Part shown: in pieces, positions 30,078 through 62,234 of the stretch
Layout: the number at the start of each line of letters is the position of its first letter
How positions within the stretch are numbered: position 1 is the first letter of the stretch
Origin: Methanocorpusculum sp.
GTDB lineage: Archaea; Halobacteriota; Methanomicrobia; Methanomicrobiales; Methanocorpusculaceae
NCBI RefSeq assembly: GCF_030655665.1
Contig: NZ_JAUSPQ010000003.1
Coordinates: forward strand, 62,001-126,000
Length of the DNA stretch: 64,000 nt
Reading direction: 5' to 3'
The notes under the pieces: generated by a model
The model's input: only the letters and a program-made list of their open reading frames with translations
Databases searched by the model: none
What the model was told of the DNA's origin: nothing
Program-made: the position numbers and the translations under genes

Positions 30078-30290
30078 AACTAAGTGGCGAGCCGTCCCGT
30101 AGGGGCGGCTTCAGCTGAGCAAGTTTTCGAAGGAAACTTGCGAATGCGGGTTGGATGCGAGCGAAGTGAAGCAGACGACCCGGAGGGGTGACCTTAGCTG
30201 AGGCGGGTTGGACGCTGAAAGCGGACGACCTCAGCGGAGCAAATCTTTGATTTGCGACCAAGTCGATAGATTTGCGAGCGCGGGTCACTT
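30078..30290. repeat. Hairpin-module repeat array, largest copy
   Basis: A run of alternating connectors (CAGCTGAG, TAGCTGAG, CAGCGGAG) and hairpins: GCAAGTTT-TCGAAGG-AAACTTGC, GCAAATC-TTT-GATTTGC and others, with spacer text GCGGGTTGGA. It marks the start of a 2.9-kb stretch (30052-32973) without confirmed long genes. That stretch holds repeats, candidate RNAs and one small membrane protein. Confidence 0.8.
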
Positions 30291-30323
30291 CACCGCGAAT
30301 TATATTGAAAAGGATTTGGCTGG

Positions 30324-30500
30324 GTGTGGATACATGAGAAAAAACCAACCGCGAATCGGCGCGAATCTCGCCCTTCGGGCTCTCAGAATCGGATTTGCTT
30401 CTCCTCACTTGAACCCGGCGGGTCTTATCGTCCCGCCGGTTCATCCCTCATCGGGAGCGTTCGGGCAAATCCTGTCGCCGCTCCAGCGGCTCCTGTGAGG
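30324..30500 (+). repeat. 175-bp terminal repeat, left copy
   Basis: It starts GTGTGGATACATGAGAAAAA and ends CTCCTGTGAGG. The inverted copy at 42051-42223 matches it almost throughout. Differences are concentrated in two hairpins whose arms change together: GCCGCT-CC-AGCGGC here and GGCGC-CCCA-GCGCC there. The outer end is shared with the GxxExxY element. The pair frames about 11.5 kb that include the NurA/HerA operon. Confidence 0.75.
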
Positions 30501-30529
30501 AATATTCAGAGTGTTTATTTATATGGGAG

Positions 30530-31030
30530 AGATATAGGGAGATTACCATTGGGTGGCTTTGAAAAGAAAAGATCCGCTCCCACCCAGCCGACCTTTTTCT
30601 TTTCGTGTTTTTGTGTGCTTTTCGATTTCGCGTATTGGCTTCTTTTGTATGGTACAATTCACGCAAGGCAAAGCCTTGCTCTGCTAAGGTCGTCCGCTTT
30701 CAGCGTCCAACCCGCTCATCACACGAAATGCACGAAATTCACACAAAAACACGAAAAAGAAAAAGATGAGATGGGTGGCCCTCTGAAGTACCCTCCCCCG
30801 TCCCTCGCAAGTCTATCGACTTGCTCAGCTGAGGTCGTCCGCTTTCAGCGTCCAACCCGCCCCCACACCAAAAAGCACCAAAATCAACGAAATTCACGAA
30901 AAGGGGGACAGGGGCGGAGGATTGGGAGAAATTGGGTGGCTTTGAAAAGAAAAGACCCGCTCTCACCCAGCCGATCTTTTTCTTTTTCGCGTTTTACCTC
31001 TATGAACGCAATTCTCTCTCCAAAAAATAA
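30530..31030. repeat. Degenerate direct repeats, no gene
   Basis: Two copies of GGGTGGCTTTGAAAAGAAAA (near 30551 and 30939), each followed by a CCCAGCCGA[C/T]CTTTTTCTTTT stretch, hairpin-array pieces at 30662-30720 and 30812-30862, CACGAAAT/CACGAAAA tracts, and one CACGAAAAGGGGGACAGGGG copy (30895-30919). The open frames crossing it translate the repeats and have no family signature. Confidence 0.65.
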
Positions 31031-31071
31031 CTCGAAGAAATCATTAATATACGATACTCTCCTAATAAATG

Positions 31072-31205
31072 ATTAGGGCAGCGTTTCCTTATAGGAATCG
31101 TCTGTCTCGTCAGCCCACGAAGATCTTGATGCGATTTTCATGGGCTGAACTTCCTTTCCTTTCGTATTCCGGGAAAATCGTCCCGCCTTTCTGTAGTGTT
31201 CTGTT
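31072..31205 (+). ncRNA. Candidate structured RNA, tandem copy 1
   Basis: A TATA-like TTAATATACGA (31044-31054) lies about 25 bases before an AGGG start region. Three hairpins follow: H1 31079-31104 (CAG..TTCC/GGAA..CTG), H2 31111-31147 (CAGCCCACGAA paired with TTCATGGGCTG, one mismatch), and H3 31170-31185 (CGGGA/TCCCG). A T-rich tail follows. A second copy 409 bases downstream keeps all three hairpins, with base changes that preserve pairing. Immediately upstream a 24-codon frame starting MNAILSP also lines up with copy 2. The product may thus be an RNA, a short peptide, or both. Confidence 0.45.
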
Positions 31206-31207
31206 TT

Positions 31208-31345
31208 GAGCGGGCCGACCCGTAGGGGCGGCCTTAGCTGAGGCGGATTGACGGCGCAGCCGGCGATCTTAGCGGAGCAAGTTTTCGAAGGAAACTTGCG
31301 AGCGCGGGTTGGATGCGAGCGAAGCGAAGCAGACGACCCGTAGGG
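31208..31345. repeat. Hairpin-module repeat array between the two RNA copies
   Basis: Starts GCGGGCCGACCCGTAGGGGC and continues with connectors TAGCTGAG and TAGCGGAG, the hairpin GCAAGTTT-TCGAAGG-AAACTTGC and the GAGCGAAGCGAAGC block. It is nearly identical in parts to the array at 30078-30290. It holds no gene. Confidence 0.75.
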
Positions 31346-31480
31346 TACACCTATTCCGGATCTTTTTCTTTTCGTGTTTTGGTGTGCTTTTCGATTTGGT
31401 GTTATGGATCATGAACGCAATGCCGTATACAAAAAGTAACTCAAAGAAACCATTGATATACGATACTATCCTTATAGATT

Positions 31481-31616
31481 ATTAGGGCAGCATTTCCTAC
31501 CAGGAAGCGTCTGTCTCGTCAGTCCATCGGGAATCCTAATCCTATTCACTATGGGCTGATCTTCGTTTCATTAAGTATTCCGGGAAAATCGTCCCGCCTT
31601 TCTGTAGTGTTCTGTT
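31481..31616 (+). ncRNA. Candidate structured RNA, tandem copy 2
   Basis: The second copy of the 31072-31205 element, with TATA-like TTGATATACGA at 31453-31463. H1 is 31488-31513, H2 31520-31558 (CAGTCCAT paired with ATGGGCTG), and H3 31581-31596. In H2 a C-G pair of copy 1 is a T-G wobble here, and an unpaired C-A of copy 1 is a T-A pair, so pairing is kept or improved. The preceding 24-codon frame (MNAMPYTKSNSKK...) shares stop position and length with copy 1. Confidence 0.45.
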
Positions 31617-31639
31617 TTGAGCGGGCCGACCCGTAGGGG

Positions 31640-31930
31640 CGGGCTCAGCCGATCTTTTTCTTTTAGTGTTTTGGTGTGCTTTTTGGTTTCGTGTACGGGA
31701 TTCTTTTTTGATGAGCGCATCCATCACACGAAATGCACGAAAAACACACAAAAACACGAAAAAGAAAAAGATGAGAAAGGGTGGCCCTCTGAAGTGCCCT
31801 CCCCCGTCCCCCACACGAAATATACGAACTCGCAAATCAAAGATTTGCTCGGCTGAGGTCGTCGACTTCGTCGCCAACCCGCCAACGAAATTCACGAAAA
31901 GGGGGACAGGGGTGGAAGAATGGGGGGACT
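31640..31930. repeat. Degenerate repeats, no gene
   Basis: Contains GATCTTTTTCTTTT, CACGAAATGCACGAAAAACAC, a hairpin-array piece with GCAAATC-AAA-GATTTGC (31826-31880) and a CACGAAAAGGGGGACAGGGG copy (31893-31913). The order of pieces is the same as at 30590-30920, so this is a second, shorter round of the same mosaic. Confidence 0.6.
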
Positions 31931-31993
31931 GGTAAGCTCAGAGAAAAAAGGAGCAGGCCGCCCCGATCCTCCCACCCAGCCGTGATGCCCGCG

Positions 31994-32146
31994 CTAACCC
32001 CTCCGAGCGAGGGTGATGATGACGATGCCAATAAAAATGATCACGCCGAAGAAGAGCATCATGATGATGAGTCCGGTGTCGGAGTCGACGATCTGACCGT
32101 TCGATGCGGTACTGCTTATTGTTTCGAAGAATGTAAGGGGAGCCAT
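31994..32146 (-). CDS. Small single-span membrane protein, function unknown
   Basis: A 50-codon frame. The N-terminal 23 residues are polar (MAPLTFFETISSTASNG and on), followed by one hydrophobic helix LIIMMLFFGVIIFIGIVIITL and the basic end ARRG. The polar-then-hydrophobic-then-Arg pattern is that of a real small membrane protein with its N-terminus outside. CTTAAAT at about 32170-32176 on this strand is a possible promoter. The opposite-strand frame at 31982-32218 is an acidic shadow of it. It is the only credible protein in the repeat mosaic. Confidence 0.5.
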   Translation of the reverse strand: MAPLTFFETISSTASNGQIVDSDTGLIIMMLFFGVIIFIGIVIITLARRG

Positions 32147-32187
32147 CGTATGGTTGACTTTTGTGTGAGGAGATTTAAGAGTGTTGG

Positions 32188-32312
32188 CGGGTCGGACCGA
32201 AGGGGCGGGCTCAGGTGAGGCGGGTTGGTTGCGAGCGAAGCGAAGCAGCCGACCTCAGCGGAGCAAATCTCTGATTTGCGACCAAGTCGTCCGCTTTCAG
32301 CGTCCAACCCGC
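32188..32312. repeat. Hairpin-module repeat array
   Basis: Connector CAGCGGAG, hairpin GCAAATC-TCT-GATTTGC, GAGCGAAGCGAAGC, and the frequent CGTCCGCTTTCAGCGTCCAA block. It is the last array before the NurA/HerA operon. No gene. Confidence 0.75.
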
Positions 32313-32442
32313 CCACCCGCAGCCGGTTTTCCCTCAATTTTCGTAACCTATCTCTCTGAGAGAGTGCGGGGTTTTTGCCCAATCCCGAGGCATTATCGCA
32401 CCGCGCGGTTAGGGGTATAAATATCCATGATTCAAATTTTAT

Positions 32443-32973: not shown

Positions 32974-34140
32974 GTGGGCGACGTACTAAAAACAATCGCA
33001 GAAAAAACAAATGGTGAAAGATATCAATCCAAAAAATACAGCCATGATGCAAGACCTCGTGCTGGTATCGAATATGATGTTGGAGATCCTATTTTCTGGA
33101 AACAAAGTGGTGAAACTGAGAAACACACTACGTCCATCAATCTTAAAAATATGGCTGATGGGATTGCAATAAATAATGAACCCTCTATTTTCAAATATTT
33201 CCTTGACGGATCTCGTCGGACCTACAAGGTGGATGACATTTCGTATGATAACAAAGTATATCCCATTATTGCCGGCCAGATTGGTATAGGGTGTTGTGTT
33301 AGAAACAACAAACGTCTGAAAAAAGAAGAGTTTTGGCGTCGTCTAGTTATTGTTTTGCCGGAAGCTGCAAGCAATGATTCATGGGGTCCTGAAAATTTTT
33401 TCAACGAGGTATTAGGTGAAGTAAACAAATCGCCGAAAATGATGGTATTAAAGGGGAAATTTAACATTCAGTTTGATAATATCCTCTATTATCGTTGGGA
33501 AAAAGATGTGAAATTGGAAGATAAAGCAATTGCATCTGTTCAAATGAAGATGTTAGATCTGGAAAAGGATCTGGTGGCAGAATTAGTTGAGAAAAATAAA
33601 TTACATCAAGATAGTTATCTAATAAAAGATGGGTCTTTGGAATATAAGATGGTTAAATCTGGTGGAAAAAATGGTAGAAATGATCTAACAAGTCAAAAAA
33701 TACGTAATAATTATAGATATGTTGTAGGGGTTTCAAAGTCATTTGACCCTACCAAAGCTCAAACAAAATCCGGAACTAACTCGGATGTCATTGCCAAGCT
33801 AAAACCATTTGAACGGACACCTGCTTTCCTGTATTCGTCGGAAATGTCTGGGGCCTCATTTATCATTTGGTATCTCAGATTACATGATTCCAAATATACT
33901 GATAATGTATTTGACGGTGTTGTCAAAGTGGAGATGGTTGTCTTAGGTTCTGATGAAGAAGTGAAACCAAAGGATTCAGATGAGATTGATATTATCTCTG
34001 CCCATCTGTTAAATGAACGAAATCCTGTTTGTTATGGAAAAGATGATAGATGGGCAAATCATATTTATCCGATTTATTTAACTGAATCATTTGTGAAAAG
34101 CAAATATCTGAGTGCTGATTTATTTATGGAATTATTTTAG
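32974..34140 (+). CDS. NurA-like nuclease
   Basis: A 388-residue protein when started at the GTG at 32974, chosen because GAGGTGAT lies 5 bases upstream. The NurA fold is suggested by DGSRRTYKVDD (the D-G-S metal motif near residue 80), YPIIAGQIGIG, the strand YVVGVSKSF, and the C-terminal RWANHIYPIYLTE...SADLF segment that resembles the NurA end. NurA is a 5'-3' exonuclease and endonuclease that works with the HerA motor on DNA ends. It is diverged from the usual archaeal repair NurA. It is followed by a HerA-like gene after 9 bases. AT-rich composition suggests acquisition. Confidence 0.7.
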   Translation: MGDVLKTIAEKTNGERYQSKKYSHDARPRAGIEYDVGDPIFWKQSGETEKHTTSINLKNMADGIAINNEPSIFKYFLDGSRRTYKVDDISYDNKVYPIIAGQIGIGCCVRNNKRLKKEEFWRRLVIVLPEAASNDSWGPENFFNEVLGEVNKSPKMMVLKGKFNIQFDNILYYRWEKDVKLEDKAIASVQMKMLDLEKDLVAELVEKNKLHQDSYLIKDGSLEYKMVKSGGKNGRNDLTSQKIRNNYRYVVGVSKSFDPTKAQTKSGTNSDVIAKLKPFERTPAFLYSSEMSGASFIIWYLRLHDSKYTDNVFDGVVKVEMVVLGSDEEVKPKDSDEIDIISAHLLNERNPVCYGKDDRWANHIYPIYLTESFVKSKYLSADLFMELF

Positions 34141-34149
34141 AGGTGTATT

Positions 34150-35802
34150 ATGAGAGTAATTGGAAGAGTAGTAGCAACGGAGAAAATACCAACAACAATG
34201 GATTCTTTCTGTTTTTGGACTGAAGAAAATCTTATTTTAAACCCGTTTGATGTTGTAGTTGTTGATCATATCAACAATAGTCAGACATTTGCAGTAATTG
34301 AGGAAATATCACATATAACTGATTCGGCAAGTTTCCTCTCAAACTATATCTCGAGTGATTTTGGAGATGTTAATGTCACTGAGGTAACTCATAGAATTGG
34401 CATGAACTATGTCAAAGCCAATGTTGTGGGAAATGATAAAAACATCTTCATCCCAGTACAAAATAATTCCCTAGTCCACCTCGCATCAAAAGACCAGATT
34501 TCTATGGCACTCGGTCTTGATGAGATAAATAACCCATTAGTTTGTGGCTATCTTGAGATGTATGAAAACGTGGATGGAAGTGAAAGGGTCACACTTCCCG
34601 TAAATATTGATTCTGCCTTCCTCATTGGTCCTGAAGGTGCCCATCTAAATATCTCTGGAATATCTGGTCTTGCGGCCAAAACTTCCTATGCTATGTTTTT
34701 AATGAAAGCCATACAGGATAAGCAGATGAGAGGTGACCTTGATGATAATGTTGCTTTTGTCTTTTTCAATGTGAAAGGGAAAGATCTGCTTGGAATTAAC
34801 GAACCCAATCCTGAAAATGACCAAAATACAGATGCTCTCTATAATATGTTGGGGATTACTCCAGAACCATTCAAGGAAGTACACTACCTTTATCCTTTCT
34901 TTAATGAAAGGACATCAAACAGCTATGTGGGTTCCGAAACATACAATCGCCAGAAAAAACTTGGAATAGCATCAAAATATAAATTTACCTATGAAGAGGA
35001 CAAAGATAGTCTCGATCTGCTCTTCTCTAACATCGACGATTCATCACAAACTATGGAGTCAATTTTGAACTATATTACGACGGACCATAGTTTTGGAAAT
35101 CTTACATCGTGGAGTCAGTTTATTGAGGAAATTGAGAAAAAATCCCAAGCTGGAAGTTCCACTGGTAGCAAAGAAATTACTGTTAATAGTTGGAGGAAGT
35201 TCACTCGCCTTATTAAAAAATCAATCAATAGGAATGAATTATTCTCAGTAAAAATCAGTGTGAATGAGGGTGAAATTCGTCTTTCTGATAAGATCAAAAA
35301 ATTGGAGAAAAATCAGGTTTATGTCGTTGATATTGCCAAATTAAACTCTGAGATGCAAGCATTTGTTTTTGGCAATGTCATAAGAGAGATTTATGATCTC
35401 CAGCTTGAAGAAGTTTGTGACAATGAAAAACACCCATCTAAGATTATTGTTTTTGTTGATGAATTGAACAAGTTTGCCTCAACAGACACACCAAAAAATT
35501 CCCCAATCTTACGACAGATTCTTGATATTGCAGAAAGAGGGCGCTCTCTTGGTGTCATCCTCTTTGGTGCGGAACAGTTCAAAAGTGCGGTCCATGATCG
35601 TGTCTCTGGAAATTGTTCTACATTTGCTTACGGAAGAACAAATGCAATTGAACTGGGAAAAACAGGATACAAATATATCCCACCAGTTTATAGAAGTATG
35701 ATGACTAGACTGAAACAAGGGGAATATATCATACAAAATCCGGTATTCAAATCTATGTTGAATATCAAATTCCCGAAACCAATTTATAAACAATTCAAAT
35801 GA
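34150..35802 (+). CDS. HerA-like hexameric ATPase/translocase
   Basis: A 550-residue protein. An N-terminal HAS-barrel-like domain (about 1-130) precedes the ATPase core. Walker A is ISGISGLAAKTS (168-179, Lys177), Walker B is IIVFVDELNKF (about 435), and the C-terminal ERGRSLGVILFGAEQF...STFAYGRTNAIE holds the arginine-finger region of HerA/FtsK-type motors. HerA pumps DNA and feeds it to NurA. AGAGGTG precedes the ATG. Together with the NurA-like gene it forms the DNA-processing half of a four-gene operon. Confidence 0.85.
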   Translation: MRVIGRVVATEKIPTTMDSFCFWTEENLILNPFDVVVVDHINNSQTFAVIEEISHITDSASFLSNYISSDFGDVNVTEVTHRIGMNYVKANVVGNDKNIFIPVQNNSLVHLASKDQISMALGLDEINNPLVCGYLEMYENVDGSERVTLPVNIDSAFLIGPEGAHLNISGISGLAAKTSYAMFLMKAIQDKQMRGDLDDNVAFVFFNVKGKDLLGINEPNPENDQNTDALYNMLGITPEPFKEVHYLYPFFNERTSNSYVGSETYNRQKKLGIASKYKFTYEEDKDSLDLLFSNIDDSSQTMESILNYITTDHSFGNLTSWSQFIEEIEKKSQAGSSTGSKEITVNSWRKFTRLIKKSINRNELFSVKISVNEGEIRLSDKIKKLEKNQVYVVDIAKLNSEMQAFVFGNVIREIYDLQLEEVCDNEKHPSKIIVFVDELNKFASTDTPKNSPILRQILDIAERGRSLGVILFGAEQFKSAVHDRVSGNCSTFAYGRTNAIELGKTGYKYIPPVYRSMMTRLKQGEYIIQNPVFKSMLNIKFPKPIYKQFK

Positions 35803-35814
35803 GGGGGCTACAAT

Positions 35815-37434
35815 ATGGTATTTGATGGAAATGTGAAATTTGGAAAGAATGTTATTGAGAATCTTACCACAGGAATGTATGAAGACTCGAAGATTATCTA
35901 TCGAGAATACATTCAAAATGCCGCTGATTCCATTGACAAAGCATTGAGAGATGGACTATATGAAGAAGATGATGAACCTAGTATAGAGATAGACATATTC
36001 CCAGATGAACGTTTGATTAAAATCACGGATAACGCCTATGGGATTAAAGCACAGGACATTGTAAAGACCTTAATTGATGTTGCTGATTCAGAAAAAGTTA
36101 AAGGAGTTGACAAAGGATTTCGTGGGATTGGAAGATTGGGTGGACTGGGATATTGTAAACTCCTTAAGTTCATCACAACGTACCCTGATGAAAACATTCA
36201 AACAACCGTAATATATGATGGGGAATTACTCCAAAAATATCTCAATGATTTCTCCATTAAGATGGATGCAGAAGAAATTCTCCAGAAAATTATAACGGTT
36301 CAAAGTGATTCATGTTCTGCTGCTTCACATTACTTTATTGTAGAACTACATGGAGTAAGGAAGGATAATGATGAGTTACTTGATCCAAACAAAATAACAC
36401 GTTATGTTTCTGAAGTTGCGCCATTAGATTATGCAAATAAATTTTATTTGAGATCAAAAATATATGAATATTTGGAAGAGAATGATCTGAAATTAACTGA
36501 TTACAGGGTCACTGTGGATGGGTTCGATGTATTACGTGACTACACCACAAAATTGTATGAAAAAGATTCTGGAGCCGATGACACTAAGAAACAATATGAC
36601 GAAATTACGCACCTTGAATTTGAAGATTTCAGAGATAATGATGGGAGATTAATTGCCTGGATGTGGTTTGGGATATCCAGATTTGATAGACAGATTCCAA
36701 TCAAATATAATCCAATGGCTGGTCTTAAACTTCTAAAAGAAAATATTCAAATCGACAATGGAGCAAAGATATCACGTTTCTTTAAAGAACCCCGCGGTAA
36801 TCTATACTTTATCGGGGAAATACACGCTGTCGACAAAGATTTAATTCCAAATGGTAGACGTGATTATTTTGAAGAAACGCCAACTCGAGTAATATTTGAA
36901 GCCAAGTTAGAAGCCTTCATCAATGATACATTATACCAGTTATATCGTGAGGCAAGTGTTGTAAAATCCATTTATCAGAGTTCTATGAAAGTTCAGGAAC
37001 TCAAGGAAGAATACGAACAAAAATCTCAAACCGGTTTTATTAATGAAACTGAACAAAAAGTTCTCATCGATGAGATTAAATCAAAAGAAGATAAATGGGT
37101 AAAAGATCGCGAAAAAGTCGAGAAGATAAAAGACAAAGCAAAAGATAATCCAATTCTTACTCAAGTAATTAATAACATCGAAAAGAAATATGATAATGAA
37201 GTTACCATATCTAAACCCTCTGAAAAAGGATTAAATGATAAAAAAATCGACAAACCTGCGAAAAAAGATCCTGAAAAACAAGAGAAAACTGTATTATTGA
37301 CGGATAAATTAACTAATTTAAGTCAAAATGAACGGAAACTGGTTGAAAGAATATATTCCGTAATCTCCAAAGTCTTAGATCCTGAAAAAAGTCAGAAATT
37401 AATCCATAAAATTCAATCAGAACTTCAAAAATAA
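35815..37434 (+). CDS. GHKL (Hsp90/MutL-type) ATPase with coiled-coil tail
   Basis: A 539-residue protein with an N-terminal Bergerat ATP site: N-box REYIQNAADSID (30-41), ITDNAYGI (G1, about 70-77) and GFRGIGRLGGLGYC (G2, about 101-114). A middle domain of the Hsp90/MORC type follows (to about 370). The C-terminal 150 residues are highly charged and probably coiled coil. GHKL ATPases dimerise on ATP and act as DNA or protein clamps. It lies 12 bases behind the HerA-like gene, and its stop overlaps the start of the radical SAM gene (TAATG at 37432-37436). A clamp or sensor for the NurA/HerA pair is inferred. Confidence 0.8.
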   Translation: MVFDGNVKFGKNVIENLTTGMYEDSKIIYREYIQNAADSIDKALRDGLYEEDDEPSIEIDIFPDERLIKITDNAYGIKAQDIVKTLIDVADSEKVKGVDKGFRGIGRLGGLGYCKLLKFITTYPDENIQTTVIYDGELLQKYLNDFSIKMDAEEILQKIITVQSDSCSAASHYFIVELHGVRKDNDELLDPNKITRYVSEVAPLDYANKFYLRSKIYEYLEENDLKLTDYRVTVDGFDVLRDYTTKLYEKDSGADDTKKQYDEITHLEFEDFRDNDGRLIAWMWFGISRFDRQIPIKYNPMAGLKLLKENIQIDNGAKISRFFKEPRGNLYFIGEIHAVDKDLIPNGRRDYFEETPTRVIFEAKLEAFINDTLYQLYREASVVKSIYQSSMKVQELKEEYEQKSQTGFINETEQKVLIDEIKSKEDKWVKDREKVEKIKDKAKDNPILTQVINNIEKKYDNEVTISKPSEKGLNDKKIDKPAKKDPEKQEKTVLLTDKLTNLSQNERKLVERIYSVISKVLDPEKSQKLIHKIQSELQK

Positions 37435-39275
37435 TGAATCGGCGTATTCTCCTCATCGAACCTAATTACAAGAATAAGTACCCACCTTTAGGTTTGATGA
37501 AAATCTCCACATATCATAAGCGGTTATCTGATGAGGTTACATTCTACAAGGGGGAGTATATTGATTTTGTTCTTGAAACAATTTACTCTAAACTTTTGGA
37601 TAAACTTACGTTTATTGATTCAACAGTTTTATGGGGTGAAAAAAAATACATTTTTCTACGTTTTCTAAAGAAGGGAACAAAAGATGATTTTCAGTATCTC
37701 TGTAAGTTAAGTGATGATATTTTCGTTTCTTCCAATTTAGAGTATTATAGAAACTATTTCAAGAACAAAAAATATTTGCAAGATCCTGAGTGGGATAGAA
37801 TTTACATAACGACACTATTTACTTTCCATTGGAAGATTACCATTGAAACAATTAATCAATTCAAACAATTGTGTAAAGATCCAACCCAAGTAATCGTGGG
37901 GGGTATTGCCGCATCTCTTCTTCCCGATGAAATAAAAAAAGAAACAGGAATTTATCCCGTTGTGGGATTACTAAATAAACCAGGACAGTTGGACAAAGAT
38001 AATGATATCATCATCGATGAACTCCCTCTTGACTATTCAATACTCTATGAGATAGAGTATGAATATCCTGAAAATGATGGATATTATGGGTATATGACAC
38101 GTGGCTGTGTCAACAAATGTGCTTTCTGCGCGGTTCCCACGTTGGAGCCAACGTATAGAGATTACATTGGAATAAAGGAACAAATTGAAAACGCAAACAG
38201 ACATTTTGGAGAGAAAAGACACTTGTTATTATTAGATAACAATGTTCTTGCTTCCAAGAAGTTCAATCAAATTATTGATGAAATAAAATCATGTGGATTT
38301 ACTAAAGGTGCCACCTATCTCGCCCCAAATGAATATGATCTCGCAATAAATGGGTTGAGACAGGGATACAATGATGCTGGATATATTAAAGAAATCATTC
38401 GTATTTATCAGAAATTAATTAAAAAATGCCCTGCAGATCACCAAAGAGAGATGTATTCCAAGTTAAGTAAACATAATCTTCTCAGCAATAATACTGCGAA
38501 AAAGGAGGAAATTCTTGGACTTGATGAATATTTCAGAACATTGTCTCCCAGGTTATCTTCCACGAGGACAAAGAGACTTCGCTATGTCGATTTTAATCAG
38601 GGGGTTGATGCTAGGTTAATGACGGACGAGAATGTGAAGAAACTTTCCGAAATCCCTATCCGTCCCCTTAGGATCGCTTTTGATTCATGGAGTGATAGAA
38701 AGTACTATGAAAATGGGGTGCGGTTGGCAGCAAAAAATGGGATAATGCATTTATCAAATTATTTGCTTTATAATTTTACGGATAAACCACTTGATCTCTA
38801 TTATCGGTTAAAATTGAATGTTGATCTATGTGAGGAATTGGGAACCCAGATTTATTCATTTCCCATGAAATATCATCCAATCAAAGATCCAGAATATTTC
38901 AAAAATCGTACATACATAGGGAGGTATTGGAATAGAAAATTCATCCGATCAGTTCAATCAGTCTTGAACGCAACAAAGGGTAAAATTAGTTCCGGCAGGG
39001 AGTTCTTTGAAGAAGCCTTTGGTCATGATGCTAAGGAGTTTGAAGAAATAATGTATATGCCAGAAACATTGGTAATTTATCGGCATTACTATCGGGATAA
39101 TGGTGTTACAGATGAATGGAGGGAGGCTTTCAATAGTTTATCCCCAATGAAATTAAGTGAAGCAAAAAAACTTATTGAGCAGAATAATTTCAACGATATC
39201 TCATCAATAACACGAGATCAAGAGCTCTTGGATCTTCTGAATTATTACACTCTCGAATACAACGAGAGTAAATAA
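37434..39275 (+). CDS. Radical SAM protein
   Basis: A 613-residue protein. The radical SAM cluster motif is RGCVNKCAFC (Cys 225, 229, 232), in CxxxCxxC spacing. The N-terminal 200 residues begin RRILLIEPNYKNKYPPLGLMKIS, similar to the cobalamin-binding-type N-terminus of many radical SAM proteins, but I see no clear cobalamin His motif. The region after the cluster keeps a (beta-alpha) barrel with DFNQGVDARLM. It is not viperin-like by these motifs. Translational coupling to the GHKL ATPase shows that it belongs to the operon. A nucleotide, nucleic-acid or protein modification is plausible; substrate unknown. Confidence 0.85.
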   Translation: MNRRILLIEPNYKNKYPPLGLMKISTYHKRLSDEVTFYKGEYIDFVLETIYSKLLDKLTFIDSTVLWGEKKYIFLRFLKKGTKDDFQYLCKLSDDIFVSSNLEYYRNYFKNKKYLQDPEWDRIYITTLFTFHWKITIETINQFKQLCKDPTQVIVGGIAASLLPDEIKKETGIYPVVGLLNKPGQLDKDNDIIIDELPLDYSILYEIEYEYPENDGYYGYMTRGCVNKCAFCAVPTLEPTYRDYIGIKEQIENANRHFGEKRHLLLLDNNVLASKKFNQIIDEIKSCGFTKGATYLAPNEYDLAINGLRQGYNDAGYIKEIIRIYQKLIKKCPADHQREMYSKLSKHNLLSNNTAKKEEILGLDEYFRTLSPRLSSTRTKRLRYVDFNQGVDARLMTDENVKKLSEIPIRPLRIAFDSWSDRKYYENGVRLAAKNGIMHLSNYLLYNFTDKPLDLYYRLKLNVDLCEELGTQIYSFPMKYHPIKDPEYFKNRTYIGRYWNRKFIRSVQSVLNATKGKISSGREFFEEAFGHDAKEFEEIMYMPETLVIYRHYYRDNGVTDEWREAFNSLSPMKLSEAKKLIEQNNFNDISSITRDQELLDLLNYYTLEYNESK

Positions 39276-39282
39276 TTTGTGT

Positions 39283-41835
39283 TTAACTATTCCAACGGTC
39301 TCTTTCTGCTTTTTCATCATATCTTGCACGAATAGCTTTTCTAAGGAGATTTGCTGGTGATAGAAAAATTTTCTCATTCTCGGTTTCTCCAATTTCCTGA
39401 ACAAGTATCATGTCGTATGTGACATCATCTAAGAAAGAAATCGGTATTGATAAATAATGATTATATTGTTTATTATTTGAATAATATTCCAGATCCCAGA
39501 TTACAAAGGTCTTTTTATCTGCAATATATCCACAGAGTAATATATCAATATCTGAGGGGAGGGAAATAGCTGATAAATTACATAGATCATAAGACATAGT
39601 TTCGGGTGAAAAGATCAAGTCTACAATACACACCTTCATTACTGGAGGATAGGGAGAATGCATTTCTAATATAATATGGTGCTTATCTTTTACTGTGAAA
39701 GAGCGTGTTGTTCGCGTACTTGTAAAGGCATTAATGAATATCTTTTGCGTCTCTGTAAATTGATTAATGAGTGAAGTTTCTTCTGATTTTTCTTTTGTGA
39801 TTTGGGCATTGTAAGACTTAAAAGTGTTCATCTCCCCTTTGGATACTGTTTCATATTGTGATATTATGATTCTTTCATCTATTTTAGTATGGTATGCATT
39901 CTCTCCTCCGTCTGCACTATAAGGTTCTAATCCCCCCTCTTTCCTCCTGAATAACTCAGATTCTTTAGTTAATACCTCATTAGGATCACACGGGAATCCT
40001 ACAACCATTTCAACGATTGTATGAAGATCATTAAATACCGCATTAAATGATCCGAGCTTCCACAAAGATTTGGATATTGATGTTAAATATCCTTCAAAGA
40101 TGAGCTTCTGTTTTTGTTTAAGAGCATCATGTGTTGCTAAAGTACGCAAACTATTGTTGAAGGTAGATCCCTGTAATAAGAAATACCGTCCATTTGCTTT
40201 TTTAACTTTAGCAGATGCATCTCCTGATTTAATCACAAGCAACTCTCCCTCAAGAGATATTGAGTAATTTGATATCAGAGAAGAACTATTGTCGTTGGCT
40301 GAATCAGCAGTGAGACTCTGTTTTCCCTCATCATGTCCCATGTCTGTAGTCATAGGGGGATTCTCAAATCCAACATCCAGGTTGATTTTTTCAGATTCTC
40401 CATCTCTAATAATAGGGAGTTCATCTTCACGAGAGAGAGATTCCAATATTGTCTCTTTTGGGAGACTAATATTTTCCTCACCCATCCCTACCCTATCACC
40501 AACGATTTCCGGTGATTGCATAACAACAGAAGACTGCAGACTTGACTTATCAAACGAAAATTTCCACACGGATTCTGCGGGTAAAACATCAAAAGTAGGA
40601 CAATCCTCCCATCTACATCCTAGAATCATTTCCAGAGCCAAAGAAAGAGAAGGGAACGTACAATTATTTGTCAAACGTAATATCGTCGAATCAAATGGAC
40701 TGAGAGCTAACTGCTGAATATTTTTTAGGGAATTACGTGTTGTCAAAACTTTATCTGAAAGACCAAGCTCCTGGCTTAGGAGAGTGGATTGAGTTTCGAT
40801 AGTGTATCCCAAAAAATTCTTCTTAATGAGAGAGACTGCATTCGGGGCAGAAATAGAAAGGGTATCCTTATCTTTGATGATCTTTACTTCAAACTCAATC
40901 ACTTCTCTCGCTTCCTCAACTACGTCAGAACTCTCCGAATTTTCTATTGAAAATAGTAGATGAAATCCATCTTCCACATAATACGCAGGCATGGATGTCT
41001 GCACTTTCTTTATGGATTTCCCAGGACTATCTATTCCACTCTCATCTGAAGACTCGCTCCGATCCACATATAGCTCCGCATAAATCTCATCCGGAACCGG
41101 CTTCTCCAACTTCCAGATGATATTCATCGGTTTTGAACCCTCATGTTTCACATACGAAACCTTCCCAAGAAAAACATAAGGGACAGACTTCCCCTCCTTC
41201 ATCTTTTGCTCACGAACAAACAAAAGAACCTGAGTTCCCATTTCTGCATGATTGATATATCTTTGACCAACAGAGGAGGTATCCGGGGTTGAGTTTTGAG
41301 ATTGCCAATGGAACTGTTCTTTATCAATAAAATAATCCTCGTAAGTCGTAGTTGAGGAATATTCATCCTCTGTCTTTTTCAGAGTGACAAAGAACAGATC
41401 CGTCTTTTTATCTGGAAGATAGATCACTCCTTCACGCATTGCAGGACGTTTTGACCAATTCCAGTAATCAAACGCAGCTAAGATCTCATTGCGAGAATAG
41501 CGAGAATACAAATCCAACACGCAGTCATAACCAAGATCTATTTTGTTCTTGAGTGGTTTCTGTTCAGTATATTGTATAGACAAATAATCGAGAAATTCTT
41601 TATATCCCTCAGTGTGCTCCCGAAGAGCTTGCACAAAGTCCATTGGATCTTTAAACCCAATTTCGTCTGGCGTATCTTGATAGAGGGAGTAATAGAACAT
41701 ATTCAGCATCGTGAAGTCATCTTCAAACAATGGATCGTTGTCAGCACGAAGCAGATGATATAAAAACGAAATATAGGCAGGAGATGAGACGTATGATAGC
41801 CTTTTCAAAGCTTTGCATAAATGCTCATCATTCAT
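39283..41835 (-). CDS. Large multidomain protein with DUF3427 region, helicase absent
   Basis: A protein of about 850 residues, convergent with the radical SAM gene (7 bases apart). After a 120-residue helical start (DEHLCKALKRLSYV), residues about 130-270 match the DUF3427 region found at the end of some phospholipase-D/DEAD helicases: DLFFVTLKKTEDEYSSTT, FHWQSQNSTPD, GQRYINHAEMGTQVLLFVREQK. The N-terminal helicase of such proteins is missing. A DUF4357-like segment (ANGRYFLLQGSTFNNSLRTL) follows near residue 570. The C-terminal 170 residues (FINAFTSTRTTRSFTV..., VIWDLEYY) have a nuclease-like look that I cannot confirm. ATGs at 41835 and 41847 are both possible. Confidence 0.7.
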   Translation of the reverse strand: MNDEHLCKALKRLSYVSSPAYISFLYHLLRADNDPLFEDDFTMLNMFYYSLYQDTPDEIGFKDPMDFVQALREHTEGYKEFLDYLSIQYTEQKPLKNKIDLGYDCVLDLYSRYSRNEILAAFDYWNWSKRPAMREGVIYLPDKKTDLFFVTLKKTEDEYSSTTTYEDYFIDKEQFHWQSQNSTPDTSSVGQRYINHAEMGTQVLLFVREQKMKEGKSVPYVFLGKVSYVKHEGSKPMNIIWKLEKPVPDEIYAELYVDRSESSDESGIDSPGKSIKKVQTSMPAYYVEDGFHLLFSIENSESSDVVEEAREVIEFEVKIIKDKDTLSISAPNAVSLIKKNFLGYTIETQSTLLSQELGLSDKVLTTRNSLKNIQQLALSPFDSTILRLTNNCTFPSLSLALEMILGCRWEDCPTFDVLPAESVWKFSFDKSSLQSSVVMQSPEIVGDRVGMGEENISLPKETILESLSREDELPIIRDGESEKINLDVGFENPPMTTDMGHDEGKQSLTADSANDNSSSLISNYSISLEGELLVIKSGDASAKVKKANGRYFLLQGSTFNNSLRTLATHDALKQKQKLIFEGYLTSISKSLWKLGSFNAVFNDLHTIVEMVVGFPCDPNEVLTKESELFRRKEGGLEPYSADGGENAYHTKIDERIIISQYETVSKGEMNTFKSYNAQITKEKSEETSLINQFTETQKIFINAFTSTRTTRSFTVKDKHHIILEMHSPYPPVMKVCIVDLIFSPETMSYDLCNLSAISLPSDIDILLCGYIADKKTFVIWDLEYYSNNKQYNHYLSIPISFLDDVTYDMILVQEIGETENEKIFLSPANLLRKAIRARYDEKAERDRWNS

Positions 41836-42050
41836 CACTCCCGCCATATAATTTGATTAGTCTGTTTTATTATGATATAAGGGTTGTTTTACTGATGATT
41901 CCCCAAAAATTAAAAAAAAACCATAATCCACACTTCATTCACACCCACATATAACCGAGGTCTCTCTCTAATCTCAAAGACTGGCATCCCTCAGCTTCCA
42001 ACTGTTATTTCTCTCCCTCGTTTTGTGATGATCAATGAAAGAACTATTTC

Positions 42051-42223
42051 CCTCACAGGAGGCGCTGGGGCGCCGACAGGATTTGCCCGAACGCTCCCGA
42101 TGAAGGGATGAGCAAGACAGCGTAGCTGGCTTGCGAAAGTGAGGAAAAGCAAATCCGATTCTGGGAGCCCGAAGGGCGGGATTCGCGCCGATTCGCGGTT
42201 GGTTTTTTCTCATGCTTCCACAC
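42051..42223 (-). repeat. 175-bp terminal repeat, right (inverted) copy
   Basis: On the minus strand it runs from GTGTGGAAGCATGAGAAAAA (42223 side) to CTCCTGTGAGG (42051 side), colinear with 30324-30500. The inner block differs: left carries a CCCGGCGGG-type hairpin, right carries CGCAAGCCAGCTACGCTGTC. The hairpin GGCGC-CCCA-GCGCC is co-varied with that of the left copy. Confidence 0.75.
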
Positions 42224-42239
42224 CCGACCTTACCCCTCT

Positions 42240-42900
42240 AGAACTTTAGCTTCAATATCCCCCATCTCTCCGCCCCTGTCCCCCTTTTCGTGAATTTCGT
42301 TGAGTTTGGTGCTTTTTGGTGTTGGGGGACGGGGGAGGGTACTAAATGGAGACCGTCCAACGAACTTTTCTCTTTTTCGTGTTTTCGTCATGTTTTCGTG
42401 AATTTCGTGTGATGAATTGTACAACCCCAAAGAATCCAATACACCGAACCGACTTACATCCACCCCCCCCAAAAAAACCCAATCGTATAAACCTGCGGGC
42501 AGTTTATCTTTCTCTTTTTCACACAAAACATTCTCGTCCAAATTCCTTCTCTCCCCATGTGACGCCTTCTATTATAAAAACCCATATTAGATCGTAATAC
42601 GTCAAAACAAACCTTAAAATATCCTCAGATCCAATAAAAAGTAGACAAAGTTCGCAAAAGGAAAAAACAATCAGCGCGGTCCGGCATACGAGTCCTGCGG
42701 GACGGTTAGCTATTTTAGGGTACGATTCGCAGCCAAATAAGTCGTCTTCCTCTGCCCACGGGCCAAACTGAAAATTTTTTCCCTTACCGAACTGATCACA
42801 AACCTTGCGGGTTCGTGACACAACGGAACTCAGGCTCTCCTAGCGGATGATCCTGAAAAATCGTACAGGCACCCATCCGGGACAGATTACCCCAGATAAG
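42240..42900. other. Repeat-rich intergenic region
   Basis: Begins with an inverted copy of the CACGAAAAGGGGGACAGGGG repeat (42268-42294) and GTGAATTTCGTG tracts to 42412. The rest (42430-42900) has no frame with a protein signature; the minus-strand frame 42519-42821 looks random. GTCCTGCGGGAC (42690-42701) is a small palindrome. I see nothing else that I can support. Confidence 0.5.
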
Positions 42901-46246: not shown

Positions 46247-47551
46247 ATGGCTGATGAAAAGAGTGCTGACCGCGATATTCTCATTAAAACTGTAAGCAAA
46301 CAGCTCACCGGTCTGAAAGGTATACTGCCACTTGAGAAGATGGGTGAATATTATACAAAAAAGGAGTTAAAGTACCGGGTACCGAAGGATCAATGGGAAG
46401 AGAACTGGGAGCTTTTAAAACTGACACGGGTATTGTTCTGCAATCATCTGCCGTATAAACCGCTGGATATCACCTATGTTCTTACGCCGGAAATCTCGCG
46501 GGAACTGCATGTGTGTGACCAGAATCTCTCTACAGTTTTTTCACAGGGTAGCAAGTCTCTGGAGTCTGCAACGGAATATATTATAGAGGCTTTGTCTGAT
46601 GAAGCGATCGCTTCGAGTAAGTTAGAAGGGGCTGTTACTACGGAGCTTGTAGCAAAGAATATGCTCCGAAAAAATATTCCTCCAAAGAATAAGGATGAGC
46701 AGATGATCGTGAACAATCATCTGGCGATGCAGTTTATCCGGGGCAAGATGGATGATATGCTGACCCCTGAGTTTATCCGGGAGGTTCAGGGTATCGTGAC
46801 GAAGGATACTCTACGGGATGAGGGTCAGTCAGGGGTTTTCAGGAATGTAAATGATGTGTATGTAAAAGATAAAGTGACCCACGAAGTGATTTATTACCCC
46901 CCGAATGCCGAGGAGATCGAGCCGATGATTGCCGCATTGTGCGATTTTGTGAATCATGACAGGAATTATCCAAATGATGGGGATTCATTTGTCCATCCGA
47001 TTATCGTGGGTATTGCGCTGCATTTTCTGATCGGCTACATCCATCCGTTTTATGATGGTAACGGGAGAACTGCCCGAACGCTCTTTTACTGGTATGTGTT
47101 GTCAAGGAAGTATGAGGTGTTTGCATATATTCCGATTTCGAAAATCATTCAGCAGGCACCGGCAAAATACCGGGATGCGTATCTGGCAACGGAGGAGGAT
47201 GATCTTGATCTGACGTATTTCATTTTGTATAATATCCGGTGCATCAGAAAGGCACGGGAGGCATTGATCCGTCACCTGAAGCTTGAGAGTAGCAGAAAGA
47301 GTAATGCAGAGAAGGCAATTTCTGTGTTGTCGGATGTGAGCAAGCGGCAGGCAGCCATCCTTACCTATATGGTTGAGTATAAGACAGAAGAATTTGGCAT
47401 TAAGGAGATCGCAGACCGGTTTTCGGTGACGTATCAGACGGCAAGGACGGATATGATGCATCTGGCGGATTCGAAGTATCTGAGTGTAAAGAAGAAAGGG
47501 AGGGCTTTTTTTTATTCAGTGCGGCCTGAGTGGTTACAAAAAATCGACTAA
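46247..47551 (+). CDS. Fic family protein with C-terminal winged helix
   Basis: A 434-residue Fic protein. The Fic core is HPFYDGNGRTAR beginning at His266, which transfers AMP or another phosphate group from a nucleotide to a hydroxyl of a target protein. An inhibitory helix motif S-x-x-x-E-G (S123 to G128 in SSKLEG) lies ahead of the core, as in class II Fic proteins, so the enzyme is likely self-inhibited. Residues from about 385 form a winged helix-turn-helix (IKEIADRFSVTYQTARTDMMHL). No separate antitoxin gene is seen. The palindrome in front and the array behind suggest that the protein binds these sites. The sequence is less GC-rich than the block before it. Confidence 0.9.
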   Translation: MADEKSADRDILIKTVSKQLTGLKGILPLEKMGEYYTKKELKYRVPKDQWEENWELLKLTRVLFCNHLPYKPLDITYVLTPEISRELHVCDQNLSTVFSQGSKSLESATEYIIEALSDEAIASSKLEGAVTTELVAKNMLRKNIPPKNKDEQMIVNNHLAMQFIRGKMDDMLTPEFIREVQGIVTKDTLRDEGQSGVFRNVNDVYVKDKVTHEVIYYPPNAEEIEPMIAALCDFVNHDRNYPNDGDSFVHPIIVGIALHFLIGYIHPFYDGNGRTARTLFYWYVLSRKYEVFAYIPISKIIQQAPAKYRDAYLATEEDDLDLTYFILYNIRCIRKAREALIRHLKLESSRKSNAEKAISVLSDVSKRQAAILTYMVEYKTEEFGIKEIADRFSVTYQTARTDMMHLADSKYLSVKKKGRAFFYSVRPEWLQKID

Positions 47552-47560
47552 TTTTTTTTG

Positions 47561-48145
47561 AATTACTAATGAATTACTAATTTGTGTAAATTTAGTAATT
47601 GGATACTTTTTACTTATATGCACTGAATGAGAAGGAGGAGGCAGAAGGCCAACTACTAATGAATTACTAATTTGTGTAAATTTAGTAATTGGATACTTTT
47701 CACTCATATGCGCTGAATGAGAAGGAGGAGGCAGAAGGCCAACTACTAATAAATTACTAATTTGTGTAAATTTAGTAATTGGATACATTTTACTCATATG
47801 CACTGATTGAGAAGGAGGAGGCAGAAGACCAACTACTAATGAATTACTAAGTTGTGTAAATTTAGTAATTGGATATATTTTACTCATATGCACTGACTGA
47901 GGAGGAGGAGGCAGAAGGCCAACTACTAATGAATTACTAAGTTGTGTAAATTTAGTAATTGGATACATTTTACTCATATGAACTGAATGGAGGGGAGGGG
48001 GGAGGGGGTAATTACTAATGAATTACTAAGTTGTGTAAATTTAGTAGTAAGCCTCATTTCCCCTTATCTGGTGTTTGGGCACATATGCGGCATATTTCCA
48101 ATTACTAATCTATTACTAATATCTGTTAAATTAGTAATTGGACCT
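47561..48145 (+). repeat. 90-bp tandem iteron array with TTACTAA palindromes
   Basis: The phrase AATTACTAATTTGTGTAAAT TTAGTAATT (split here) begins at 47571, 47661, 47751, 47841 and 47931, an exact 90-base period; a sixth degenerate copy is near 48021 and a final clean palindrome CCAATTACTAAT...ATTAGTAATTGG lies at 48098-48141. Each unit also carries GAGAAGGAGGAGGCAGAAG. The arms match the fic operator. It has no protein. The minus-strand frame at 47534-47977 only repeats the unit. Confidence 0.85.
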
Positions 48146-58377: not shown

Positions 58378-61300
58378 TTAGATGTCAATTCCATGTCTTT
58401 TAATAGCTCGTTCTCTTTTAAATCCGGGAGGTAGGGGTTTATACCTTTTATCGTTTGCATCATATTCGTGGGATTGAAAGTTGGCTAGGGATTCAATATC
58501 CAGTTCTCCAACAATGAGAGTACTATTTTTCCCACCGCCGATCTGACCAAGATTCCTTTTTTCATGTCTTGATGGTTGTATTATTCGCGAACAACCAAAT
58601 TCAGAAGTATTTGAATAAACTACATAGCAATGCAGATCTCGGGTAACTGATTCAAGAATATCCATAAAATATGAGACATCTTTGTTCCATGAACAGGCAA
58701 TCAGAAAATCTAATTCAGACCGGAAAATTGCCCGATGCTGAATATCTGCTAATTCAAAACAGTTGTACACAGTAAACTGTGTTCCTCTCCATTCGTAAAG
58801 ATGATATATTGCATTTTCAAAACAGGGAATATCATATCCATTCTTATTGAGGTCACGAATTTCTTCTGGGGCATAATGATTTTTGATTCTCAGAGATACA
58901 CAACAGGACTTATACATATCTTTAACTTCGAAGGGAAGAAGCGCAGCAGTTAGATTATAAGCCAGTGGCTTGTTTTTACACATATCTTCTCCTTCGGGAG
59001 AGGGGAGACAAATGTGTTCTATCCCAAATACCAATCCAATCTGATGTTCACGGGTCCACATCGTTAAACTAGGTAACCATTGGGCGGGAATAGCACACTC
59101 AGGAAATACTACGAGATTACATTTTTCCTTTACAGCTGTATTCAGAATCTGAGATATCTCCAGCCATTTCTCCAGAGACAGATTATGCTCTTTTGTTGTC
59201 TCATAATTACTCGATATATCAGCATAGGGTAACTTCAGATTAACAATTCCAACACGAAGCTTTGTTAATATATCTGCATTGGAAGTGATGGTGATTTTTG
59301 TAGGATGCACATCAGATGTGATTTTGAAATTTCTTTGATGCAGAGGTTCAATATTAATATTTATCTTATCTTCATCTATTTTCGCCATCCATTGATAAAC
59401 ATCAGATTGTTTCTTTATTGCATCCTTTAGATATCCTAAGAGTTTGACTGGGTCACTATCTTTTATTTCATCTGAATCCTCTCTAGAGGTCAACCTCCCT
59501 TTTGTTTTCAAATCTTTTAGAGCATAGAATAACTGCAGTTCATGAATGTGAATGAAACGCGGCGTATTTTTTATTTTCACTTCATCAAGTTCGAGTGAGT
59601 TTGTAAACCCGGAATAGAATACATCAATGTTACAGAGATCACCGGAATAATCTTTAACATAATTCAGGAGAGGATAGGACACATGATGATGACGAAGCAT
59701 ATTTGCCTCCCTGAAACACTGGGAAAAATCATATATCCGAGTTGCTGTTGGTATTTCATCACTTACTGTTCTAGAATATGGACAATATTTATCAAAACTA
59801 TCCTCAGATAGTAATGCTAAGGCTGAAGCTAACGCTAGCTCTTCGTATTTTATTAAATCCTTCTTGACACGATACTCGAATTTATTATCCAGAGAATATT
59901 GTAAATATGAAATATTCTTTTTAATATCATAATAGATATCTTTCAATCCCTCGGGTTTTTGTGATAAAATAAATAATGTGAAGAGTTTCTCCCATGAACG
60001 AATGTAGCTAAGATAGTTTTTCCCACGTAAATCCTGGAGAAGTGTCTTAATAAACTCCTCACTATATTCGAGAGGTTTGCCGCAGATTTTTAAATGTGAC
60101 AACTGTTTAGCAAGTAAAATCGAAAATGCAGCCTGATTAATAGTTAATCTCTCAATATTTCTCAGTTTATTCGTTCCACTCTCCTCATAGACAAGATGAT
60201 ATAAGTCTGTATCACAAAGATCATTTATTGGAACCTCAGGGAGATACGTGAACACTTGAGAATTATCTTCGATAGCTTTTGTAAATAATTTCAGAAGAGC
60301 CGTTGAATGATGTGAATCTATCTGAAATATCTTTATTTTTTCATTTTGTACAATTATTCTTTTTTTAGGGACACCCTGAATTTTTATGTAATATTGGGGA
60401 CCCTGAGCATTTGATTGAGTTTTTGGGTATTTTGCAAGAATCCCTCTATCTACAAAATATTTTTTGATAACAGTCTCTAAATCAGAATTTATTATTCGTT
60501 TTGGCTGTTCATCATTGGAATATTGCGGTTGCGATATGACCAGAATAGAATCGTCGACATACCGACCATAATATCTTGGCTTTAAATCATCCAGTATTTT
60601 TTTGTCAAAATCTTTGAGATACCAGTTTGCAAAAATCTGAGATGATGGTAATCCAATTGGGAGAATTTTCTTTTGACCATTCTTACCCTTGTCCCATGTA
60701 TCTTCAGAGAAAATGCTTTGATGTGTTTTCTTTGCCTGTTCTTTGATTAAATCCGTTGATTTAATGTGAATTTTTTCAAGAATTATATTCAAATGTTCCC
60801 ATAATGTTTGTTTCTCAAGATTATTACTCGAATTGAATTTATTATTAAGACTATCTAATATTTTCTTAAAATCAATGTCAATTGAGTAAAAATAATTTGC
60901 AAAGTCAAGAGAGAAGATAAGTGTATTTTCATGATTACTTACTGCTTCCTTTGCACTTTTCATTGCATTGGATCTCCAGTCATTATATTGATTGATGTAT
61001 TTTTTGAACAAATGTGAACTATTGTCCTTATCTTTTTTCGATATCACCAAATCATGTATTCGATTTGCATAACAACAATCCCCCAATTCCTGATCCAAGA
61101 ATACACCTATCTCAGTAATCCACCATACATCCAGTATCAATAGTGGAACTGGGATGTCAAAGAAATAATTTACGCCATCAATAACATATTTAGGTGACGA
61201 ACTTACATTTGATACTGTACGTTTGGAGGGTAATTTGGACTCCTTATTATCAAAATCGACTGATTTTGGAAGTATATGACAAAAAATTTTATTTATCCAA

Positions 61301-61577: not shown

Positions 61578-62234
61578 CTACAAATTTCTCTCTTTTATAA
61601 CATCTGGTAATCTGGTGGAGGAATTGAATTCCTGAGGATAATATACAATACCTGGCAGTTTCTCTCCAATATAACCATATTTAGGATGATATCCAAATAA
61701 ATTCACATAGTCTGCCAAATCATCTTTTTCGAGGTTCATTTCATAGAATACAGCACAAAGTGCCATTACATCATCCATTGCCTGATGTGTATTTTCTACA
61801 TCATCTATATTATAATATAAAATAGCATCACTAAGCTTATGCGGGTAGGGAAATCTATCTTTAAACACAGTTAATGTGTCAATTACTCCACATTTTTGTG
61901 GAAATGAATAACCATACCGATTAAACATATTCCGTAGGAATGAGAGATCAAACTGTGCATTGTGACTGACGAATAGTATTGGACCCGGAATCCGCAACAT
62001 CAATGCAAAACGACGAGCAACTTCGCTTTCCGGTAATCCTTTCATTGATAAAAATTCCCGTGTCAATCCAGTAATCTTCTCCACCTCCGGTTCAATCTCT
62101 ACGTCATCTGGAAGTTGAACATATGCATCCATTGAAAAATCAACACCATCCGATCCGATACAAAGGGCTGCCAATTCTGTAATTCTATCTAACTCGGGAT
62201 TGCGATTTGTTGTTTCCACATCAAGTACAATCAT
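61578..62234 (-). CDS. DEDDh 3'-5' exonuclease (DnaQ-like)
   Basis: A 218-residue exonuclease from the ATG at 62232-62234, chosen since motif I follows at once (IVLDVETT, D5 and E7). SHNAQFDLSFL gives motif II (D96), and NTHQAMDDVMAL gives motif III (H150, D155). The length and spacing suit the DnaQ/polymerase III epsilon or RNase T group. It stands 56 bases before the RT-nitrilase gene on the same strand, and both are AT-rich, so they are likely one operon. Known DRT1 loci are usually described as a single gene, so the exonuclease may be an added module. Confidence 0.88.
   Translation of the reverse strand: MIVLDVETTNRNPELDRITELAALCIGSDGVDFSMDAYVQLPDDVEIEPEVEKITGLTREFLSMKGLPESEVARRFALMLRIPGPILFVSHNAQFDLSFLRNMFNRYGYSFPQKCGVIDTLTVFKDRFPYPHKLSDAILYYNIDDVENTHQAMDDVMALCAVFYEMNLEKDDLADYVNLFGYHPKYGYIGEKLPGIVYYPQEFNSSTRLPDVIKERNL

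Follow-up and report, generated by a model that had tools for sequence, protein, structure and literature searches.

A sporadically distributed NurA-HerA-GHKL-radical SAM operon in Methanocorpusculum, a candidate restriction-modification-like defence system

Layout of the operon

The 64,000-nucleotide stretch of DNA analysed here (the window) spans positions 62001-126000 of contig C3 in the source genome (G000), a Methanocorpusculum genome of 1.81 Mb. Between 32974 and 39275 it carries four co-directional genes on the + strand, encoding a NurA-family nuclease, a HerA-type DNA motor, a GHKL ATPase and a radical S-adenosylmethionine (SAM) enzyme. These genes form a strict unit that recurs intact across bacteria and in some archaea. 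In the open reading frame (ORF) reading their spacings are 9, 12 and -1 nt, and genes 3 and 4 share a TAATG junction with an overlap of 1 nt. Both the gaps and the overlap had been described in an initial annotation of the window made from the sequence alone. The features of the locus are as follows (values after database and profile matches, here and below, are E-values).

32974..34140, + strand: gene 1, NurA-family nuclease of about 388 aa (predicted fold, invariant residues, PF09376 in 2/52 homologues)
34150..35802, + strand: gene 2, HerA/FtsK-family DNA motor of 550 aa (profile to 7f6d_B, PADLOC HerA, invariant residues)
35815..37434, + strand: gene 3, GHKL ATPase of 539 aa with an Hsp90-type N-domain (HATPase_c_3, HtpG profile, invariant residues)
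37434..39275, + strand: gene 4, radical SAM enzyme of 613 aa with an N-terminal cobalamin-binding-type Rossmann domain (CxxxCxxC, predicted fold)
39283-41847, - strand: 854-aa protein with a DUF3427 domain at residues 71-259 (1.8e-32)

For gene 1, the GTG start at 32974 fits the homologues better (MGDVLKTIAEKTNGE vs MGAVLKVIEKETTGVS) than the mechanical ORF start at 32965, from which the residue numbers of this protein are counted below. The region is AT-rich, as the initial annotation had stated, with a G+C content of 31-40% over 33-42 kb vs about 45-60% on both flanks; the four genes themselves lie in a stretch of 31-36%.

The four proteins

Gene 1 itself matches no Pfam model, and PF09376 (NurA) is matched by 2 of its 52 homologues (4.9e-5). 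Its AlphaFold model (predicted local distance difference test score, pLDDT, 88) is closest to Deinococcus radiodurans NurA (7f6d_G; Z 20.6, root-mean-square deviation 3.7, 290 residues aligned), with further matches to T. maritima TM1739 (Z 19.0), Sulfolobus solfataricus NurA (2ygk, Z 16.0), TdpB (8wfd_G, Z 15.2) and T. kodakarensis NurA (Z 13.4). D81-G-S, E200, D222-G-S and H366 are invariant in an alignment of 52 sequences, and the model has the NurA fold with a conserved acidic/His active site. The profile of gene 2 matches D. radiodurans HerA (7f6d_B, 4.4e-51), and the protein also matches PADLOC HerA (2e-5). Its P-loop is a variant, G-I-S-G-L-A-A-K-T, with no Gly preceding the Lys; K177, the Walker B DELN (D437-E438), R463/R465 and Q476 are invariant. 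Judged by sequence, gene 2 is a HerA motor with Walker A and B motifs and a probable arginine finger, whose residue is placed by position only. The products of genes 1 and 2 would be expected to assemble into a HerA-NurA complex.

Gene 3 matches HATPase_c_3 (4.6e-6), its profile matches the HtpG/Hsp90 N-domain (5.3e-11), and its Bergerat residues E31, N35, D72, G76 and G101-G106 are invariant. In gene 4 the radical SAM cysteines C225-C229-C232 are invariant in 52 sequences, and no other cysteine is. A structure prediction, which the initial annotation had recommended for this protein, gives a model (pLDDT 90) with B12-fold radical SAM architecture. The closest folds are AprD4 (Z 21.8), MgmA (Z 20.3), OxsB (Z 19.5), TsrM (Z 19.5) and MiaB (Z 19.3); the radical SAM profile finds nothing significant among PDB sequences. 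The CxxxCxxC motif, TIM barrel and N-terminal Rossmann domain place gene 4 in the B12-fold radical SAM class. Methylthiotransferases carry three additional N-terminal cysteines, which hold an auxiliary cluster. An identity as MiaB or RimO was rejected for gene 4 on the invariance of C225, C229 and C232 only. All the motifs that the initial annotation had read in the four proteins, namely the NurA D-G-S, the HerA Walker A/B, the Bergerat boxes and the CxxxCxxC, were recovered, the HerA Walker A in variant form.

Conservation of the four-gene unit

A radical SAM profile was searched against 84,980 species genomes and yielded 503 relatives, a number that takes classes and possible outliers together; the operon counts cover the best 80 of these. 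NurA, HerA, GHKL and radical SAM genes lie on one strand in the same order at 66 of the 80 loci, a contig end cuts another 12, and only two (L077, L088) are without NurA-HerA. Over a set of 70 complete loci, the spacings have medians of 11, 12 and 0 nt. Interrupted or split operons account for 8 of the 66: an AriA/NsnB-like ATPase and a second gene are embedded in L082 (6257-8442), a second GHKL and a 330-aa gene in L092 (4637-7283) and L102 (7352-10004), and a similar insert in L087 (7351-10001), while L085 has an opposite-strand ORF within the operon and L034, L045 and L076 have one gene split. Compared pairwise over 67 sets, the distance matrices of these proteins show correlations of 0.90-0.94, a level reached in 0 of 999 permutations. 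The four proteins co-evolve, and the four genes form a strict unit. The initial annotation had proposed a search for the four families in this order and had staked its hypothesis on other genomes keeping the genes together, as many do.

Carriers belong to Bacillota, Bacteroidota, Synergistota, Planctomycetota, Deferribacterota, Spirochaetota, Ignavibacteriota, Aminicenantes, Cloacimonadota and Lentisphaerota, although some bin labels of metagenome-assembled genomes may be wrong. They are mostly anaerobes, from gut and sediment among other sources, and include gut commensals such as Roseburia and Blautia; several are named cultured strains, for example Roseburia faecis M72, Acetobacterium dehalogenans DSM 11527 and Frisingicoccus caecimuris DSM 28559. 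Two IMG/VR contigs have the operon (L105, L106); because L105 also carries host-like genes and an integrase-like ORF, a viral origin is not inferred. At L052 (11915-14143), L063, L068, L073, L085, L088 and L108, a protein of about 224-267 aa and a second GHKL ATPase adjoin the radical SAM gene.

Horizontal transfer

Within the archaeal class, strong relatives of the GHKL protein occur only in G165 and G054, and in both the operon is complete, with its genes ordered as in the window. Archaeal copies are rare: the other genomes of the genus gave no GHKL match, and the radical SAM profile matches 3 of 393 sampled genomes of the phylum. In a quick tree, in which the window branch is long, the window radical SAM protein clusters with Bacillota (support 95) and those of G165 and G054 with a different Bacillota sequence (support 100). 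Because the window copy and the G165/G054 copies fall in different Bacillota clades, the operon probably entered this archaeal order from Bacillota at least twice.

A housekeeping identity of the NurA and HerA genes was considered and rejected. PF09376 finds no NurA in G000, in sampled genus-mates or in 14 bacterial hosts; this model recognises the divergent NurA clade of the operon poorly, so that the result addresses canonical repair NurA only. NF040937 (HerA) has no match in G000. With no canonical NurA in these hosts, genes 1 and 2 are therefore not housekeeping copies. The initial annotation had named, as an outcome that would undo its proposal, that the pair might be the host's only repair copies with no sign of transfer. 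This is contradicted by the sporadic archaeal distribution, the Bacillota-like tree positions and hosts that lack canonical NurA, which together mark the operon as horizontally transferred and separate from host repair copies.

Genomic context

The blocks that flank the operon are about 10 kb apart in the complete genome G024, from a sister species in the genus, with other cargo between them (L156, G024:C1:1219500-1237500). This cargo includes a Type III restriction-modification pair in PADLOC terms, REase_III (2e-190) and MTase_III (3e-202), and an SNF2 helicase matching PADLOC C3a139 (5e-229). Neighbours of the operon in other genomes include AbiE, AbiL, AriA, integrases, relaxases and Mob proteins. 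The context backs a role in defence, which would presumably be antiviral.

The initial annotation had presented the locus as a defence operon on a mobile island, accompanied by a convergent DUF3427 gene and bounded by repeats. This reading is supported in part, by an operon intact across bacteria and some archaea, transferred, and occupying a slot shared with a restriction-modification system; the DUF3427 gene and the repeats drop out. The convergent gene exists, with its DUF3427 domain detached from the usual helicase and only weak matches (MTaX1, PDC-S14) in the remainder. It was rejected as an operon component since other operon copies have different downstream genes. Its homology in the class, which extends over about 260 aa only, mostly of proteins of about 1050 aa, also counts against membership. 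The intergenic repeats (30087-32315; 42046-42417) have dozens of dispersed copies across G000 and several genus-mates; the repeats at 30-32.6 and 42-42.8 kb were accordingly discarded as element ends and do not support a mobile island.

Elsewhere in the window, a 1047-aa reverse transcriptase (58378-61521, - strand) matches PADLOC RT_UG5-nitrilase of the DRT group (1.5e-210) and is adjoined by a DEDDh exonuclease-like gene (61578-62306). A Fic-domain protein (46247-47551, + strand) matches PADLOC SoFic (6e-43). A tandem array at 47561-48059 has 5-6 copies of a 90-nt unit with a 50-nt core that is 86-98% alike.

The radical SAM-GHKL pair with other DNA modules

The radical SAM and GHKL proteins also occur without NurA and HerA. 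A tblastn search of plasmids found 12 alphaproteobacterial records with homologues of both. In the annotated plasmid loci examined, a gene for a DGQHR protein comes first, followed directly by radical SAM and then GHKL, and the DGQHR protein matches PF14072 DndB (1.4e-9) and PADLOC DpdB (5.3e-15). Most annotated plasmid loci have an SNF2-type helicase with a ParB-like gene, as well as a pair made up of a PIN-like and a second GHKL gene. Related loci of the viral collection encode a protein of 140 aa that bears a PD...GEAK signature and, read by motif only, is a putative PD-(D/E)xK nuclease. G192, an archaeon, has a radical SAM homologue of shorter length beside DndB/DpdB-family, GHKL, DrmC-like and DrmB-like genes. 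Across these loci the radical SAM and GHKL proteins are the constant element, and the DNA-attacking module varies.

The archaeal cluster L013 (8663-18957) combines GHKL, DndB/DpdB-family and radical SAM genes with an unknown protein of 1109 aa and DrmC-like and DrmB-like genes. On two contigs of the viral collection, L118 (8411-12660) and L120 (8312-12615), a radical SAM relative lies between genes of 248-266 aa and 411-415 aa. At L020-L023, on plasmids of Chloroflexota, Streptomyces and Cyanobacteria, HerA occurs with SbcD and SbcC homologues, preceded in most by a gene of about 330-390 aa.

Proposed function and alternatives

The reading preferred here, held with about even confidence, is a mobile anti-virus or anti-plasmid system with restriction-modification-like logic, in which NurA-HerA degrades DNA and radical SAM-GHKL makes the self-mark. 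HerA would form a translocase ring on double-stranded DNA with NurA as the nuclease at its exit, the two making up a processive DNA-degrading machine. The GHKL and radical SAM proteins would work together as a second module, chemically altering the DNA of the host cell, or a site licensing NurA-HerA, so that destruction is limited to unmarked foreign DNA. A GHKL dimer could load or position the radical SAM enzyme, acting as a clamp or switch gated by ATP. GHKL proteins do occur in restriction-modification operons (PMC2292703), and the T. kodakarensis NurA-HerA pair, for which antiviral roles have been discussed, is reported not to produce 3' overhangs (PMC12977600). The initial annotation had combined a GHKL sensor or clamp with a radical SAM enzyme acting on a target or small molecule; the occurrence of the pair beside DndB/DpdB-family proteins with a different nuclease looks more like a DNA-marking module. 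Such a role is proposed mainly because the pair stays constant beside these proteins while the nuclease module changes, and DNA would then be the radical SAM substrate. NurA-HerA would be the restriction counterpart, much like TdpAB beside TdpC in TdpABC, and TdpB is one of the nearest folds to gene 1. Somewhat more tentatively, the pair may install a new DNA modification and, in bacteria and archaea alike, be swapped as a module between NurA-HerA, PD-(D/E)xK/SNF2/ParB and DrmB/DrmC-type restriction modules. The modifications listed in a 2026 review are methylation, phosphorothioation and 7-deazaguanine derivatives only (PMC12904381).

Several points weigh against this proposal. No DndB/DpdB-family gene was found with the DGQHR profile in the NurA-HerA operons examined. 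The classical role of HerA and NurA is in repair. The closest folds of gene 4 act, to our knowledge, on small molecules, protein, tRNA and antibiotics, and none on DNA. The neighbouring gene families are supporting context for defence rather than an enrichment test, having been scanned without a matched control set. A system without DNA marking could also work.

The best rival is defence of this last kind, with the radical SAM enzyme acting on a protein or small molecule and NurA-HerA triggered in another way: NurA-HerA would attack incoming DNA at its free linear ends, infection would be sensed by GHKL, and the radical SAM enzyme would make a viperin-like antiviral small molecule or modify a protein that activates the nuclease. 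We consider it possible but rather unlikely. The operon and context data speak for it too, and MgmA, a top fold match, is a protein-modifying radical SAM enzyme. The B12-type fold of gene 4 differs from viperin as generally known, and the radical SAM-GHKL pair turns up again with DndB/DpdB-family proteins and another nuclease module, which points to DNA modification instead. DUF4297-HerA works without a modification enzyme (PMC11291478), and for VcSduA of the Shedu family, control of the nuclease by a GHKL domain has been proposed (PMC12137116); both fit defence without marking.

Improbable by comparison is a mobile repair or end-processing unit, with lesions repaired or reversed by the radical SAM enzyme and resection carried out by NurA-HerA. 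HerA-NurA acts in the resection of DNA ends (PMC12977600) and related plasmid HerA genes in bacteria adjoin SbcD/SbcC, yet the distribution is patchy, the hosts lack canonical NurA, the same slot holds a restriction-modification system, abortive-infection and restriction-modification families are neighbours, and the radical SAM-GHKL pair is associated with the DndB/DpdB family. Least probable of all, and very doubtful, is a MiaB-like unit for RNA (tRNA) modification tied to a DNA nuclease for abortive infection. MiaB is among the top folds (Z 19.3), but the partner proteins are DNA enzymes and gene 4 has only the three invariant radical SAM cysteines, whereas methylthiotransferases bind their auxiliary cluster through three more.

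Relation to known systems

In TdpABC, TdpAB destroys DNA and is paired with TdpC, a DNA-modifying enzyme that inserts sulfur. This phosphorothioation-linked Thermus system (TdpAB structures 8wfd, 8wet) likewise combines a HerA-type motor with a NurA-fold nuclease (TdpB, Z 15.2). The operon described here has radical SAM and GHKL proteins in place of TdpC and contains no PP-loop enzyme, and among the matches of the gene 2 profile at E<=1 no chain is named TdpA, the sequence match being to D. radiodurans HerA. The archaeal and Deinococcus HerA-NurA end-processing complex (7f6d, 9x1m) comprises the same two families and provides the best sequence and fold matches; it has no GHKL or radical SAM partner, whereas the pair described here is mobile and occurs sporadically. 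Dpd (7-deazaguanine) and Dnd (phosphorothioate) systems are connected through the DndB/DpdB-family protein that accompanies radical SAM-GHKL in Alphaproteobacteria and one archaeon. The class to which the window belongs uses a NurA-HerA effector and has no DndB/DpdB gene in the operon, and its own proteins have no match to TGT-like DpdA or to DndC, DndD or DndE in Pfam, NCBIfam or PADLOC. DUF4297-HerA and Sir2-HerA also join HerA to an effector enzyme, and gene 2 has a weak profile match to 8xau (1.7e-4); the nuclease here is instead NurA, with an RNase H-like fold, and there are two extra genes. Restriction-modification operons with GHKL proteins of the MORC/paraMORC type also place a GHKL ATPase with a nuclease and a motor (PMC2292703). 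They carry methylases where this operon has radical SAM and HerA, and that paper mentions no HerA, NurA or radical SAM.

PADLOC 2.0.0 has no model matching genes 1 and 4 and gives weak or partial matches for genes 2 and 3. Open-access papers yielded no account of the four-gene set; this search barely covered preprints and did not extend to newer defence catalogues, where the set may already be listed as a candidate. The initial annotation, which knew of no described system with this exact set, agrees in this with PADLOC and with the open-access papers found. The set could be a variant of HerA-effector or restriction-modification-like defence, and could be categorically new if the modification is confirmed.

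Significance

Because several carriers are named cultured strains, a direct test by nucleoside mass spectrometry is possible. If the proposal is true, the operon would represent an unreported immune system found in as many as several hundred species. The DNA modification that serves as its self-mark would be a product of radical chemistry and invisible to methylation mapping, adding radical SAM modification to the list of methylation, phosphorothioation and 7-deazaguanine. NurA-HerA, usually studied as a repair pair, would then have been reused as a restriction engine.

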